Assembly: GCF_009800965.1 (NCBI RefSeq)
Contig: NZ_WUAF01000020.1
Coordinates: 1 to 64,000 of the forward strand
From: Cognatazoarcus halotolerans
GTDB taxonomy: Bacteria > Pseudomonadota > Gammaproteobacteria > Burkholderiales > Rhodocyclaceae
DNA: 64,000 nucleotides
Direction of reading: 5' to 3'
The notes below the pieces were generated by a model. It ran no database searches, had not been told where the DNA came from, and was given only the letters and a program-made list of their open reading frames with translations. Positions within the stretch are counted from its first letter, which is position 1. Every line of letters begins with the position of its first letter. Made by a program: the position numbers and the translations under genes. Below are positions 50,243-57,634 of this stretch, piece by piece.

Positions 50243-51490
50243 TCAACCAGGCAGTGATTCCATTCGCGCTGCGAGCATTTCGATCCAGTGCCGTACGGGT
50301 GTAGCCGTCCCGGCCTCGAGATGCGTGATGCAGCCGATGTTGGCCGATGCAATGCATTTGGCTCCGCCTGCCTCCAGGGCCGCAAGCTTGTTGCTGCGCA
50401 ACTGCTTGGAGAGCGTCGGCTGAAGCAGCGAGTAGGTTCCCGCCGACCCGCAGCACAGATGGCTATCGGCGACCGGCGTGAGTTCGTAACCGGCGGCCTC
50501 CAGCAAGCGCTCGACTACGCCGCGGATTCTGAGTCCGTGCTGCAAGGTGCAGGGCGCGTGGAAAGCCAGCTTCTCCGCTGACGGCATCCGCTGCTTGCTC
50601 AGCACCGCCTCGAGGGCATCTGCCTCTCGCGCCACGATCTCCGATATGTCGAGCGTCAGTTCACTGATTCTGGCGGCTCTTTCGGCATAGACCGGATCGT
50701 CACGCAACAGGTAACCGTAATCCTTTACCTGAACACCGCAACCGGATGCCGTCATCACGATCGCTTCGACCTCGCCGCGCTCGACCGCCGGCCACCAGGC
50801 ATCGATGTTGCGCCGCGCATCCGCCAGACCGCCATCCTGATCGTTGAGGTGATAGCGCACCGCACCGCAGCATCCGGCGCCCGGCATTTCCACCAGCGAG
50901 ATTCCCAGCGCATCGAGCACCCGGGCCGATGCGGCGTTGATCGACGGTGCCATCGACGGCTGGGCGCAGCCTGCCAGCGCGATCATCTTGCGGCCATGCC
51001 GCGGCGTCGGCCAGGCGCCCGCCGGACGCGCGTCCGGCACCTTGTCCTTGAGCATCGCCGGCAGCGCGGGCTTTGCCATGCGACCGAGCGACATCGCCGC
51101 ACCGAAGATCCCGGCACGCGGCACGAACTCCTTGAGCAGCCAGCGACTCAGTCGGTCCGCCCCGCGTCGCGGAACCTGCCGCTCGACCACGTGCCGCCCG
51201 ATGTCGACCAGCCTGCCGTAACGAACACCTGACGGGCAGGTGGATTCACACGAGCGGCAAGTGAGACAGCGGTCGAGGTGTTGACGGGTTTTCTCGGTTG
51301 CCGGCCGTCCTTCGAGCACTTGCTTGATGAGGTAGATCCGGCCGCGCGGGCCGTCGAGTTCGTCACCGAGCAACTGGTATGTCGGGCAGGTGGCGGTACA
51401 GAAGCCGCAATGGACACAGGCGCGCAGGATGGACTCGGCTTCCCTGCCCTCGGGTGTGTCCTTGATGAAATCAGCGAGATTTGTCTGCAT
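50243..51490 (-). CDS. glcF: Glycolate oxidase iron-sulfur subunit
   Basis: A 415-residue GlcF. Two [4Fe-4S] motifs, C25-C28-C31-C35 and C75-C78-C81-C85, are followed by two cysteine-rich CCG domains (GCCGAVRYH and HLCCGSAGTYS). It passes electrons from GlcDE towards the respiratory chain. It is the last gene of the gntR-glcD-glcE-glcF unit. A weak hairpin without a T-run follows (50199-50216). Confidence 0.95.
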   Translation of the reverse strand: MQTNLADFIKDTPEGREAESILRACVHCGFCTATCPTYQLLGDELDGPRGRIYLIKQVLEGRPATEKTRQHLDRCLTCRSCESTCPSGVRYGRLVDIGRHVVERQVPRRGADRLSRWLLKEFVPRAGIFGAAMSLGRMAKPALPAMLKDKVPDARPAGAWPTPRHGRKMIALAGCAQPSMAPSINAASARVLDALGISLVEMPGAGCCGAVRYHLNDQDGGLADARRNIDAWWPAVERGEVEAIVMTASGCGVQVKDYGYLLRDDPVYAERAARISELTLDISEIVAREADALEAVLSKQRMPSAEKLAFHAPCTLQHGLRIRGVVERLLEAAGYELTPVADSHLCCGSAGTYSLLQPTLSKQLRSNKLAALEAGGAKCIASANIGCITHLEAGTATPVRHWIEMLAARMESLPG

Positions 51491-51509: not shown

Positions 51510-52571
51510 TCAGAGATCGGGATAAAGACGACCGCGGCCGAATACCGCAGCCGGATCAAAGGCATTCTTGAGGCGCCGGTGGATGGCTGCCAGCGGGCCG
51601 GCCAACGGTTGGAAAACACCGATCGCCTTGTCGCCGCCGCGGAACAGCACGGCATGACCGCCGGCAGCAGCGGCAACCTCGCGAATCTGCTTGGCCTCAA
51701 ACTCGGAGCGTAGCCAGCGCTGGGCGCCGCCCCACTCGATCGCGGTGACCCCGGGCAGATCCACCGGCGCCGCGTCGCTGGGCAGCGCCAGGCGCCAAAG
51801 CGGCCCATCACCGCTGAAGAACGAATGCCGCTGCTCACGCACTGCCAGCCATAGCGCAGTGGCCTCGTCTTCTTCGAGGCGCTCGCCGCCCAGACGGACA
51901 ACGGCCGCATCGACCGCAGCCCCGGCACCGGACAGCCGCAGTGTCAGCAAACCGTCGTGCCAGAACGATGCCGACACCGGCAGCGGCTGGCCGCCCCACT
52001 CGTTGAGTCGCAGCAACGCCGCCCGCTGATCCATCTCGAAGCGAAGCGTCGTCTCGGCCACCGGCCTCGGCAACACCTTGAGGGAAACTTCGGTGAGCAA
52101 CGCCAGTGTTCCGAGGCTGCCTGCAACGAGGCGCGATACGTCGTAACCGGCCACATTCTTCATGACCCGGCCGCCGAAGTTGAGGAGGTCCCCACGCCCG
52201 TCGATCAACTGAACGCCAAGCAGGAAATCCCGTACGCCACCGACCGCCTGCCGGCGAGGTCCAGCGAGCCCGGCAGCGACACAGCCGCCCGCCGTCGCGG
52301 CTCCGAAGCGCGGTGGCTCGAAGGCGAGGAACTGCCCCTTTTCGTGGAGCACCGCCTCGAGCTCATCGAGCGGCGTGCCGCTTCGCACCGTCACTACCAG
52401 CTCGGTAGGCTCATAGGCGACGATCCCGGCATGTTCGCGAGTGTCGAGCACCTCGCCTTGCGGCGCCTGACCGTAGAAGCGCTTGCTGCCACCCCCGCGG
52501 ATCTCCAGCGCCGAACCCTCCGCGGCAGCCTGGCGGATCCGCTCGACCCACCCGGATATCACTGCGTCCAT
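51510..52571 (-). CDS. glcE: Glycolate oxidase subunit GlcE
   Basis: A 353-residue FAD-binding subunit. It has the PCMH-type FAD domain with GGGCVAAGLAGPRR-like glycine-rich segment near residues 90-105 but is shorter than GlcD, as usual for GlcE. It forms the catalytic membrane-associated complex with GlcD and GlcF. It lies 42 nt after glcD and 19 nt before glcF. Confidence 0.94.
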   Translation of the reverse strand: MDAVISGWVERIRQAAAEGSALEIRGGGSKRFYGQAPQGEVLDTREHAGIVAYEPTELVVTVRSGTPLDELEAVLHEKGQFLAFEPPRFGAATAGGCVAAGLAGPRRQAVGGVRDFLLGVQLIDGRGDLLNFGGRVMKNVAGYDVSRLVAGSLGTLALLTEVSLKVLPRPVAETTLRFEMDQRAALLRLNEWGGQPLPVSASFWHDGLLTLRLSGAGAAVDAAVVRLGGERLEEDEATALWLAVREQRHSFFSGDGPLWRLALPSDAAPVDLPGVTAIEWGGAQRWLRSEFEAKQIREVAAAAGGHAVLFRGGDKAIGVFQPLAGPLAAIHRRLKNAFDPAAVFGRGRLYPDL

Positions 52572-52613: not shown

Positions 52614-54125
52614 TCAGAAGCGCTCGAGATCGGCATGTGGCAACTGCCCGTCATGGACATGCAGCTTGCCGTATTCGGCACAGCGGTTCAGGGTGGGGAT
52701 GGCCTTGCCCGGATTGAGCAGGCCGTCTGGATCGAACGCTGCCTTGATGCGGAAGAAGGCGGTGCGCTCGGCCGCCGAGAACTGGCTGCACATCTGGTTG
52801 ATTTTTTCCACCCCGACGCCGTGTTCGCCGGTGATGGTGCCGCCCAGCGACACCGACAGCTCAAGGATGTCCGCACCGAACGCTTCGGCGCGATCAAGCT
52901 CGCCCGGGACGTTTGCATCGAACAGGATCAAGGGATGCATGTTGCCGTCGCCAGCGTGGAACACGTTGATGCATCGCAGGCCGTATTTCTTTTCCATGCC
53001 CTGGATCGCCTCGAGCATCTCGCCCAACCGCTTTCGCGGGATGGTGCCGTCCATGCAGTAATAGTCGGCCGACAGGCGCCCCGCGGCAGGAAAGGCGGCC
53101 TTGCGGCCGGCCCAGAACTTGAGCCGCTCTGCCTCGTCGCGCGACACGCGGATCTCGCTCGCGCCGCTCTCTTCGAGTACCGCGCGGATCCGCCCGACCT
53201 CTTCGCTGACTTCCTCGGGCGTACCGTCCGACTCGCACAGCAGGATCGCCGCGGCCTCGAGGTTGTAGCCGGCATGCACGAACTGCTCCACTGCGGCCGT
53301 GGCCGGCTGATCCATCATCTCGAGACCGGCGGGAATGATCCCCGCCGCGATCACCGCGGCCACCGCATTGCCCGCGGTCACGACATCGTCGAACGAGGCC
53401 ATCACGCATTGCGCCAGTTGCGGCTTTGGCGTGAGCTTGACCGTCACCTCGGTGATCACCGCGAGCATGCCCTCGGAGCCATGCATCAGCGCCAACAGGT
53501 CATATCCCGGGGCATCCAGGGCGTGGCTGCCAAACTCGACGACCTCGCCATCGATCGTGAGGCCTCTTACCCTCAAGACGTTATGTACGGTAAGACCGTA
53601 TTTGAGGCAATGCACCCCGCCCGAATTCTCGGCCACGTTGCCACCGATGGTGCAGGCGATCTGCGACGAGGGATCCGGCGCATAGTAAAGCCCGTGCCTG
53701 GCCGCAGCTTCGGAGATTGCGAGGTTGCGCACACCTGGTTGCACGATCGCGAGACGCGCGACCGGATCCATGCGGACAATTTTCTTGAAGCGCGCCAGCG
53801 AGAGCAGCACGCCATGGGCATGCGGCAGCGCACCGCCCGACAACCCGGTACCCGCGCCTCGAGCCACCACCGGTACGCCCTGTTCGCTGCAGACTCCGAG
53901 CACGGCAGCGGCCTGCGCCTCGGTTTCGGGCAGGGCGACCACCATCGGCATCTGACGATAGGCGGACAGGCCGTCGCATTCGTAGGGTCTCAGATCTTCC
54001 TGATCGTAAAGAAGGCAGCCGGGCGGCAGAACCCGCGCCAACGCTTCGATCAGCCTGGCACGATCGACCCTCGAGAAATCGATCTCGTTCGCACCGGGCT
54101 CCATTGTCTCCACCACTTCACTCAT
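52614..54125 (-). CDS. glcD: Glycolate oxidase subunit GlcD
   Basis: A 503-residue FAD-linked oxidase that oxidises glycolate (and often D-lactate) to the 2-oxo acid. The FAD pyrophosphate loop GAGTGLSGG is at 90-98 and the C-terminal catalytic region contains GTITGEHGVG. ATG 54125 overlaps the regulator stop by ATGA, so the regulator and glcDEF are translated from one mRNA. Confidence 0.96.
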   Translation of the reverse strand: MSEVVETMEPGANEIDFSRVDRARLIEALARVLPPGCLLYDQEDLRPYECDGLSAYRQMPMVVALPETEAQAAAVLGVCSEQGVPVVARGAGTGLSGGALPHAHGVLLSLARFKKIVRMDPVARLAIVQPGVRNLAISEAAARHGLYYAPDPSSQIACTIGGNVAENSGGVHCLKYGLTVHNVLRVRGLTIDGEVVEFGSHALDAPGYDLLALMHGSEGMLAVITEVTVKLTPKPQLAQCVMASFDDVVTAGNAVAAVIAAGIIPAGLEMMDQPATAAVEQFVHAGYNLEAAAILLCESDGTPEEVSEEVGRIRAVLEESGASEIRVSRDEAERLKFWAGRKAAFPAAGRLSADYYCMDGTIPRKRLGEMLEAIQGMEKKYGLRCINVFHAGDGNMHPLILFDANVPGELDRAEAFGADILELSVSLGGTITGEHGVGVEKINQMCSQFSAAERTAFFRIKAAFDPDGLLNPGKAIPTLNRCAEYGKLHVHDGQLPHADLERF

Positions 54126-54889
54126 TTTGGCTCCTCTCGATTCTGGTCCGCTCCCGCGCGGTCGGTTGACGCCGTCGCGGATTCCTCGAACGCAATTCCC
54201 AGGCGCTTGGCTGCCTCACGCAGATGGCGCGCCGCGGCCTTTCGTGCGGCCGCCGCGTCGCCCATCTCGATTGCGCGATAAAGCGCCTCGTGCTCCGCCT
54301 GAGCGTCGCGGGCCCGCCCGGTGAGACGTCCCTCTTCGCTCCAGGTCGGCAGGCGTGACTCGGAGAACTGGGCACCCAGAAATTCTACGAAGCGCTCCAC
54401 CAGTGGATTGTGCGTGGCAGCGGCAATCGCGCGATGAAAGGCATCGTCGTCGGAGGCTGCTTCCAGGTCACTGCGAAGCGCATCGGCCATGCACGCCAGC
54501 GGCGCCTGCAAGGCATCAAGGTCGGCCGGCGTGCGGCGCTGGGCTGCCAACTCGGCACAACCCAGCTCGACGAGGTAACGCAATTCGAAAACATTGCGGG
54601 CGTGGTTCAGAGCCGAGGTCGACGTCTCCTGCAAGCGAAAGCTCCCACGGCCGGCTTCGGGCGCAACGAACGCCCCGGCCCCCTGCCGCGTCTCGACGTA
54701 ACCATCGGCCTTGAGCCGCGCAATCGCCTCCCTGACGACCGTACGGCTTACCGCAAACTGGTCGGCAAGCTGCTTCTCGGTTGGCAACTGGTCCCCCGGC
54801 GCAAGACGGCCGTCACGCAACCAACCTATGAGGTTGTGCGAAAGCAGTTCCGCAAGGCGCGGGGGACGAACGATGGCACTGGATAACAT
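54122..54889 (-). CDS. FadR-subfamily GntR regulator of the glc operon
   Basis: A 255-residue repressor or activator. The winged helix-turn-helix is at about 12-75 (recognition helix near VSRTVVREAIARL) and an FCD ligand domain at about 95-235 carries the metal-type D/H residues (DDDAFHRAI, AEHEAL, ARHLREA). FCD proteins sense carboxylic acids such as glycolate, lactate or pyruvate. The role parallels E. coli GlcC, but the gene is upstream of and overlapping glcD rather than divergent. Start ATG 54889 is preferred to 54937, which would run through the operator. Confidence 0.9.
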   Translation of the reverse strand: MLSSAIVRPPRLAELLSHNLIGWLRDGRLAPGDQLPTEKQLADQFAVSRTVVREAIARLKADGYVETRQGAGAFVAPEAGRGSFRLQETSTSALNHARNVFELRYLVELGCAELAAQRRTPADLDALQAPLACMADALRSDLEAASDDDAFHRAIAAATHNPLVERFVEFLGAQFSESRLPTWSEEGRLTGRARDAQAEHEALYRAIEMGDAAAARKAAARHLREAAKRLGIAFEESATASTDRAGADQNREEPK

Positions 54890-54901
54890 CGGGTAATCAG
54901 G

Positions 54902-54912
54902 TTGTCTGACAA
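54902..54912. promoter_or_regulatory. FadR-type operator TTGTC-T-GACAA
   Basis: A perfect palindrome around a central base, matching the GTCnGAC core of FadR-subfamily sites. It lies 13 nt upstream of the regulator start, about 12 bp downstream of a minus-strand -10 (complement of 54924-54929), and its left half is the -35 of a plus-strand promoter. Binding could block both directions. Confidence 0.65.
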
Positions 54913-54931
54913 ATTGTTCGAAAACTATAGT
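54902..54931 (+). promoter_or_regulatory. Plus-strand promoter overlapping the operator
   Basis: TTGTCT (54902-54907), an 18-bp spacer, and TATAGT (54926-54931) form a good sigma70 promoter with a start near 54938. A Shine-Dalgarno AAAGGAGG follows at 54950-54957. Confidence 0.55.
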
Positions 54932-54966
54932 TCGCATCCTCGTAGAGTGAAAGGAGGGTTTTCCCT

Positions 54967-55098
54967 ATGCGCCGACAGGGCCCGCGCAAACCGGTCGATG
55001 GAACCGCCTTTCCAGAAGCACGGCACGGTGCGTCCAAACCCTCCAGTCGACCGATGCCGCCCCACCGCCACGAGCAACCGACCCAACGGCCGGTGTAA
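54967..55098 (+). CDS. Candidate 43-codon small ORF
   Basis: ATG 54967 follows AAAGGAGG at 8-9 nt spacing, the strongest Shine-Dalgarno I found in the window, and lies about 29 nt past the predicted transcription start. The 43-residue product starts MRRQGPRKP, is basic and rich in Pro, Arg and His, and has no membrane segment. It ends 32 nt before the UPF0149 gene, so it may be a leader peptide or a real small protein. I recognise no family, and its low-complexity composition could also arise by chance in GC-rich DNA. Confidence 0.4.
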
Positions 55099-55130
55099 AC
55101 TGCCTGAATTCCCCTGCCGGGCTCCAGCGC

Positions 55131-55850
55131 ATGTCAACATCCACCCTCACCAGACCGCTCTCCGACACGGACCGCGACGAGCTGCACGCCTTTCTCGCCA
55201 GCCGGCCGGGTGCGCTCGACCCGGAGGCGCTCGACGGGCTGTTCTGCGCCTTGATCGTCGGTCCGGAGACAGTCGCCCCTGGCGACTGGATACCCCTCGC
55301 CCTGGGTGAGTCGGAGCTGGTCTGGGATGACGAAGCGCAGATGCGGCGCATCCTAGAGTTGCTGCTGCGCGAGTGGAACAGCATCGCCGGCGGATTCCAG
55401 GTCGACTGGCGTGACGTACCCGAACCGGAAATGCGCGACCGCATGTACTTGCCCAGTGTCGACCCCACCCATGAGGATCCCGAGCATCCGCTTGCCAGCC
55501 GCTGGGCCAAGGGATTCGGCAAGGGCCTCGCGGTCTTCGGTGACCAGGCCTGGGAAATCATCGACGGCGACGAGGAAGCGCTCGCCACCGCCAGTCTCAT
55601 CGCCGCACTGGACCACGGACGCAATGACACCGGGGAGGTTTTCGACCACGCCAGCCGCAAACAGCTGCTGGCCCACGTCGTTGTTGGCCTGCAACACCTC
55701 TATCGCCTCTTCCGGGACGAAACCAGCCATTCGGGCCGCAGCCACGCGCCCTATCGTGCGCCTCCGCTGCCTGGCAGAAACGACCCGTGCCCCTGTGGCA
55801 GCGGCCTCAAGTTCAAGAAATGCTGCGGCGCGCCCGAACGCCTGCATTAA
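55131..55850 (+). CDS. UPF0149/YecA-family protein with SEC-C motif
   Basis: A 239-residue protein. Residues about 10-190 form a helical UPF0149 (YecA) domain and the C terminus is a SEC-C zinc-binding motif [13 protein letters not shown] with C220, C222, C231 and C232, as at the C terminus of SecA. YecA-type proteins associate with ribosomes or SecA in E. coli; the precise role here is unknown. SulP follows 43 nt later on the same strand. Confidence 0.9.
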
Positions 55851-55893: not shown

Positions 55894-57609
55894 ATGAGCA
55901 CCGCACACAGCGCCATCGATCGACTGCTACCTTTCCTTCGCTGGCGACACGAACTCTCGGCCGCGAGTCTGCGCGCGGACCTTACCGCAGGGCTCACGGT
56001 TGCACTGCTGATGATTCCCCAGTCGCTGGCCTACGCACAGCTTGCCGGCCTTCCCGCCTACTATGGGCTGTACGCTTCGCTATTGCCGACCATGGTCGGG
56101 GCCCTCTTCGGATCGCTCGCCCAGATCTCCACCGGCCCCACCCCTCTGACCGGCCTGCTGACCGCGGCCAGCGTGATGACCCTCGCGGCACCGGGGAGCC
56201 CGCACTTCATCGCCGTCGTCGTGGCCCTTGCCTTGCTCTCGGGGCTCGTTCAACTGACCCTTGGCGCTCTGCGCCTGGGCTGGATCCTGAATCTGCTCTC
56301 GCACCCGGTACTAATGGGTTTCATCAACGCCGCAGCGCTGCTGATCTGCCTCTCGCAGCTGCCATCCCTGCTCGGCCTTTCGATGCCGCATGGTCCCCAC
56401 TTCCTGCTTGATGTAGTCGGCTTTCTGGGGCGCCTCGACCAGATTCGCGTCGCTCCGGCTGCGTTCGGCATCGGCGCCCTCATTGCCCTGATGCTTCTGC
56501 GCCGGCTGGCGCCTCGGCTACCAGGCGTATTGCTGGTCATCGCTGGCAGCATCGGCCTGTCAGCGTGGTCAGGCGCCGCCGATCTGGGCGTTCGCGTTGT
56601 CGGCGCCATCCCGGCCGGCCTGCCTGAATTTGCGATCCCTGACATTCGCTGGCCCTTACTCGTCGAGTTGCTGCCCACGGCCTTCGTCATCGCGCTCGTC
56701 GGATTCATGGAGGTCGCCTCCAACGCCAAGCTCATTTCGGCGAAAACACACAAGCCCTGGAACGAGAACCAGGAGCTGATCGGCCAGGGGCTCGCCAAGG
56801 TTGCGGCCTCGATCAGCGGCACTCACCCAGTCAGCGCATCGTTCTCGCGCTCGGCCGTAAATTTCGCGGCTGGCGCGCGGACCGGCCTTTCGTCCTTCTT
56901 CACCGCTGTCTTCGTGCTCCTGACACTGCTTTTCTTCACCCCTGCACTGTGGCACTTGCCCGTCGCGGCGCTCGCCGCGGTCATCATGCAGGCGGTCGGC
57001 GGCCTTCTCGACTTCAAGGCGCTTGGAAGAGCATGGCGAGCCAGCCGGGACGACGGCATCGCCGCAGCCTCGACCTTCGCGGCCACCCTGCTTTTCGCAC
57101 CGAACATCCAGAATGGCATCCTCACCGGTCTGCTGTTGTCGCTCGCAATCTACCTGTACCGCGACATGCGACCGAGGATTGCTCTGCTGGGGCTACACGA
57201 AGATGGCACCTATCGCGATGCAGAACGCTTCGATCTGCCGCACCCGCACCCCGACCTGGTCATTCTTCGCTTCGATGGCGCCCTGCATTTCATCAATGCG
57301 GCAAGCTTCGAGGACGCAGTGCTCAAGGCCGGACGGACTCGCCCCGGGGTGAAGGTCGTGCTGATCTCGTGCGCAGGCATCAACAGCATCGACGCCACCG
57401 GCCTGGAGGTGCTTGGCAGATTGCTCACTCGCACGAAGGCAGACGGCCAGACACTGAGCTTTTGCGGACTCAAGAAGCAGGTGATCGATCGCCTCCAGGC
57501 CACCGGGATGTGGCCCGCGATACAAGGCCATGCCACTTACCGTAACGAACACCAGGCGCTCGAAGCACTGCTGCCGGCACTTGACAACCCGGACGGAAAA
57601 GGGCTTTGA
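55894..57609 (+). CDS. SulP-family anion transporter with STAS domain
   Basis: A 571-residue SLC26/SulP transporter. About 10-14 membrane helices span residues 25-430, starting with the family motif AGLTVALLMIPQSLAYAQLAG, and a STAS domain occupies about 447-560. Family members carry sulfate, bicarbonate or C4-dicarboxylates (DauA). No sulfate assimilation genes are nearby, and the promoter upstream overlaps the glycolate regulator's operator, so a carboxylate substrate is possible (inference). It ends at the rplU promoter. Confidence 0.93.
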   Translation: MSTAHSAIDRLLPFLRWRHELSAASLRADLTAGLTVALLMIPQSLAYAQLAGLPAYYGLYASLLPTMVGALFGSLAQISTGPTPLTGLLTAASVMTLAAPGSPHFIAVVVALALLSGLVQLTLGALRLGWILNLLSHPVLMGFINAAALLICLSQLPSLLGLSMPHGPHFLLDVVGFLGRLDQIRVAPAAFGIGALIALMLLRRLAPRLPGVLLVIAGSIGLSAWSGAADLGVRVVGAIPAGLPEFAIPDIRWPLLVELLPTAFVIALVGFMEVASNAKLISAKTHKPWNENQELIGQGLAKVAASISGTHPVSASFSRSAVNFAAGARTGLSSFFTAVFVLLTLLFFTPALWHLPVAALAAVIMQAVGGLLDFKALGRAWRASRDDGIAAASTFAATLLFAPNIQNGILTGLLLSLAIYLYRDMRPRIALLGLHEDGTYRDAERFDLPHPHPDLVILRFDGALHFINAASFEDAVLKAGRTRPGVKVVLISCAGINSIDATGLEVLGRLLTRTKADGQTLSFCGLKKQVIDRLQATGMWPAIQGHATYRNEHQALEALLPALDNPDGKGL

Positions 57610-57634
57610 CTTCGAAACGCGGGCGCGTTAAACT
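57606..57634 (+). promoter_or_regulatory. rplU promoter
   Basis: TTGACT (57606-57611), a 17-bp spacer and TAAACT (57629-57634) fit sigma70. The -35 overlaps the sulP stop codon. The leader to the rplU ATG is about 35 nt. Confidence 0.55.

Follow-up and report, generated by a model that had tools for sequence, protein, structure and literature searches.

The intergenic region examined here lies between a regulator gene followed by the glycolate oxidation genes glcDEF, read on the minus strand, and genes for a UPF0149 protein and a SulP transporter, read on the plus strand. The question it raises is whether a single FadR-type operator controls both sides. The window, a stretch of 64,000 nucleotides from Cognatazoarcus halotolerans, carries the palindrome TTGTC-T-GACAA (TTGTCTGACAA) at 54902-54912, exactly as the preliminary description had it, and read as TTGT-CTG-ACAA (unstranded) it fits TKGT-N3-ACMA, the operator consensus of the FadR subfamily (PMC4494728). 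A genome-wide pattern search found TTGTCNGACAA in a single copy in the whole 4.97 Mb genome, so its place between two divergent genes is not chance; a random occurrence in an intergenic region of about 240 bp would have a probability of about 1 in 10,000. Plasmid records queried with the intergenic region gave no match.

The regulator gene, gntR (54122-54889, minus strand), encodes a FadR-subfamily protein of 255 amino acids, which by profile matches and alignment has an N-terminal GntR winged HTH (PF00392, E 1.5e-21) and a C-terminal FCD ligand domain (PF07729, E 2.2e-24). Within the FCD domain, D149, H152, H200 and H222 are conserved in the alignment, and these residues fit a metal-bound carboxylate ligand. 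Three genes follow on the same strand: glcD (52614-54125), which overlaps the gntR stop and scores just under cut-off against both PRK11230 (795 bits) and TIGR00387 (516 bits), glcE (51510-52571, above the NF008439 cut-off) and glcF (50243-51490, above the NF008434 cut-off). For the operator to lie upstream of gntR, ATG 54889 must be the translation start; in the longer ORF, which begins at 54937, the palindrome would be part of the coding sequence. Since the first in-frame start in relatives lies most often 12 nt past the palindrome, the same as ATG 54889 in the window, the gntR start is, by this comparison, best taken as ATG 54889. The gntR orthologue of the same-genus genome G002 (L002) has an in-frame TGA inside the matched stretch and may be frameshifted or carry an assembly error.

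The relatives used for comparison include several metagenome assemblies, and their ORF calls are heuristic. In the 25 closest family loci the palindrome upstream of gntR is perfect in 23 and matches at 9/10 in one, and of 80 loci from named genomes 48 are glcD-linked, in every one of which the palindrome precedes the orthologous gntR with 9 or 10 of its 10 positions matching. A further set of 71 glc-linked regions was chosen for a palindrome of at least 9/10; the 25-locus and 80-locus counts were not so chosen. The distance from the operator centre to the gntR start codon has a median of 18 bp (IQR 18-24) and is uncorrelated with spacer length (r=0.27), whereas on the divergent side the distance grows as the spacer does (r=0.96, n=25). 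Where gntR has been replaced between glcD and SulP, by a hyi-like (hydroxypyruvate isomerase) gene in L156, L161, L163, L167 and L168 and by a LysR gene in L160, the intergenic palindrome is absent in 6/6 loci. The near-fixed distance to gntR and the loss where gntR is replaced indicate that the palindrome belongs to gntR-glcDEF. This supports the glycolate oxidation side of the earlier proposal, a FadR-type operator of gntR-glcDEF, conserved across Rhodocyclales.

Promoters were sought in 1.2 kb, with sites scored as matches out of 12 hexamer positions, and exactly two sites reached threshold, both at 9/12, where 0.1 were expected. One is the candidate plus-strand promoter that had been described before, TTGTCT-18-TATAGT at 54902-54931, whose -35 (TTGTCT, 54902-54907) is the left half of the operator and is not conserved in glc-linked relatives. 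The other, missed until now, is a minus-strand promoter facing it, TTCACT-16-TATAGT at 54951-54924, with its -35 (TTCACT) at 54946-54951. Both use the same -10, because the perfect 10-bp palindrome AACTATAGTT (54923-54932) contains the plus-strand hexamer at 54926-54931 and the minus-strand hexamer at 54929-54924. Judged from this layout, the glc transcript would start near 54917 on the minus strand, putting the operator at about +6 to +16, and the plus-strand transcript would start near 54938, with the operator over that promoter's -35.

The two promoters fare differently among relatives. The glc-direction promoter, sigma-70-like, reaches at least 8/12 in 49/71 regions against 5.5% of shuffles. 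The plus-strand promoter is not conserved, the single region of the 71 with such a divergent -10 being that of this genome. Bacteria are known to have bidirectional promoters built on one symmetrical -10 (PMC12825309), and the present pair resembles them in that one palindromic -10 can be read by two opposed promoter-like sites. It differs in that the starts are only predicted, 21 bp apart, and that an operator overlaps one -35; the predicted spacing comes near the values reported most often, 18, 10 and 23 bp, without equalling any of them.

The reading that we favor, with a probability of about 0.85, is that the FCD-type GntR regulator uses TTGTCTGACAA as the operator for repression of its own operon, gntR-glcDEF, and that a shared -10 found in this lineage only could add a plus-strand promoter. 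The sequence itself shows the operator site, that it is conserved and in what position, its link with gntR, and a glc-direction promoter that is conserved too; from these we infer regulator binding, repression and a ligand. A regulator dimer on the operator, just past the predicted glc start, would block RNA polymerase, and its release would come with a small hydroxyacid, of which glycolate is the likeliest. The perfect palindrome at the -10, a feature of this genome only, would let the same 10 bp serve the plus-strand promoter as well, with the left half of the operator as its -35. An active plus-strand promoter would bring UPF0149-SulP under repression by the regulator too, with two polymerases in competition.

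E. coli GlcC, likewise a FadR-subfamily regulator of a glc operon with a site of the TKGT-N3-ACMA type, is an activator, so the family alone does not settle the sign of regulation, and repression is taken here from the position of the operator. The gntR product also reaches only 78.8 bits against the GlcC equivalog model, whose cut-off is 301. It is far under the equivalog cut-offs of two further regulators as well, with 104.5 bits against 311 for LldR and a score far under the curated cut-off for PdhR. In the operators of LldR and PdhR, 3 nt separate the GT box from the AC box (PMC4494728), a pattern that TTGTCTGACAA fits, but those regulators serve another operon. GlcR of Paracoccus denitrificans is close as well: it belongs to the FadR subfamily, represses glcDEF and binds DNA less in the presence of glycolate (PMC11323563). 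There too a FadR-subfamily GntR gene stands beside glcDEF, and by analogy autorepression released by glycolate would be likely here; the difference is that the glc operon here begins with gntR, and the predicted autorepression site lies just before the gntR start.

A second element may contribute to the glc promoter. The sequence GGGTTTTCCC (54956-54965, unstranded), of the form GGG-N4-CCC with an A/T-rich center, is a candidate activator site at about -43 from the predicted glc start. Activators commonly bind at about this distance from a transcription start. A 6/6 copy is present in 18/71 glc-linked regions (shuffle mean 0.8, maximum 4), all 18 copies lie 47-53 bp before the operator, and about a dozen further regions have 5/6 versions there. 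As a candidate marker of a genome-wide regulon, the pattern GGGWWWWCCC occurs 39 times in this genome and its reversed control 16 times, and most of the sites viewed are inside predicted ORFs. One copy precedes a ppsA-like ORF (L186) by about 70 bp.

On the plus strand, a putative ORF of 43 amino acids, rich in Pro and Arg, occupies 54967-55098 and is probably not a conserved gene. It has no family match, and 60 relatives give only weak, low-complexity Pro/Arg-rich matches at unrelated places. The strength of its ribosome-binding site is weak evidence for a gene, because the Shine-Dalgarno sequence AAGGAGGG overlaps the conserved GGG-N4-CCC and no relative is convincing. Next comes the UPF0149 + SEC-C (YecA-like) gene at 55131-55850, followed by a SulP-STAS anion transporter gene at 55894-57609, identified by profile matches, and by rplU, whose own promoter TTGACT-17-TAAACT lies at 57606-57634, all on the plus strand.

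The gene divergent to gntR varies among relatives. It may be rplU, SulP then rplU, UPF0149 then rplU (G003), haemerythrin-like genes or TRAP genes; rplU is directly divergent in the same-genus genomes G002 and G005 and in several Aromatoleum, and UPF0149 adjoins gntR only in this genome and in the sister species G003. The promoter of rplU is of the TTGAC(T/G) type in the window and in relatives, including those with rplU directly divergent. Relatives with a divergent SulP have an own promoter for it, TTTGCTAANAT, which precedes the SulP start by 31-62 bp and is 86-176 bp away from the operator. The search pattern for this promoter matched in 15/16 loci, a few of which have variants, TTTGCTACCAT and TTTGGTAAGAT among them; L063, the remaining locus, has TTTGCTAAGAT. 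In the window the motif was not found upstream of UPF0149 or SulP. In Candidatus Accumulibacter (L071, L074, L077, L084) a different SulP, with 29-31% identity to the one in the window, is divergent to gntR-glcDEF.

SulP was considered as a true partner of glycolate metabolism and rejected: it is often divergent to gntR-glc, yet it stays beside rplU without glc or gntR and occurs alone elsewhere, so shared synteny explains most of its linkage to glc. A literature search for SulP and glycolate gave nothing relevant among the matches listed.

How the palindrome and the plus-strand genes are related can be read in several ways. That the palindrome is a functionless chance inverted repeat is scarcely credible: 11-bp palindromes do arise by chance, and a few more copies are present in other genomes, but this one is conserved at a specific position in all 48 glcD-linked loci and across dozens of genera, and it is absent where gntR is replaced. 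A more serious proposal is that a single operator serves, in this genome, to repress gntR-glcDEF and UPF0149-SulP alike through the shared -10, with the palindrome as -35, and this we regard as possible but doubtful. The promoter overlapping the operator is the best candidate upstream of UPF0149 (9/12, the next best being 6/12), and the window scan found no terminator before UPF0149. Relatives have a conserved SulP promoter that is lacking here, which leaves dual control possible in this lineage. Support also comes from a sister regulator clade, linked to TRAP genes, that has TTGTCA-18-TAAAGT over the palindrome in 16/18 non-glc regions; the clade is monophyletic (100/99), so the geometry with the operator as -35 occurs elsewhere, and the TAAAGT at 18 bp from the palindrome makes it plausible as a working geometry for divergent promoters in this GntR regulator family. 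The clade (L070, L073, L081, L082, L085, L086, L090, L092, L099, L101, L114 and L116) has divergent DctP-type TRAP transporter genes, and in the tree it branches from within the glc regulators.

Against dual control, a divergent -10 of at least 5/6 at 16-18 bp from the palindrome appears in 1/71 glc-linked regions where shuffles predict 0.6, and G003, the sister species with UPF0149 divergent, has no such -10. The operator also lies 18 bp from gntR and 223 bp from UPF0149, whereas single operators shared by divergent genes usually sit mid-spacer (PMC4494728). The same chance-level frequency favors another reading, to which we give roughly even odds: the -10 symmetry has produced the plus-strand promoter as a side effect without function, and UPF0149-SulP is read from a weak, nearer promoter outside the operator, for example TAAACT at 55096-55101. 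Relatives do use promoters near SulP or rplU, and in G003 a TACAAT precedes the UPF0149 start by a few tens of bases, but the TAAACT candidate in the window reaches only 6/12 and is without an extended -10. Of the first proposal, that one operator could repress both transcripts, the operator on the glc side is supported; the UPF0149-SulP side is not conserved, and a second role there is lineage-specific, seen in this genome only and not established. A general link of UPF0149/SEC-C and SulP to glycolate metabolism is not supported, given the single divergent -10 in 71 regions, its absence from G003 and the own promoters of SulP and rplU. It is improbable that a gain of -10 symmetry brought UPF0149-SulP into the glycolate regulon as a glycolate-controlled divergon, with SulP moving glycolate or a related carboxylate.

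Autorepression of gntR-glcDEF remains the preferred reading. Both FadR-type repression of glcDEF and promoters with a shared -10 are already known kinds, and this locus is a new instance of them. It offers a clean operator for the control of glycolate oxidation across Rhodocyclales, including Azoarcus, Aromatoleum, Zoogloea, Accumulibacter and others, and by analogy it likely extends FadR-type repressor control of glcDEF beyond Paracoccus GlcR. The GGG-N4-CCC at the glc promoter is an unnamed element that can be tested as an activator site. The locus is also an example of how a repressor site together with a symmetrical -10 could put an unrelated neighbor under the same control.
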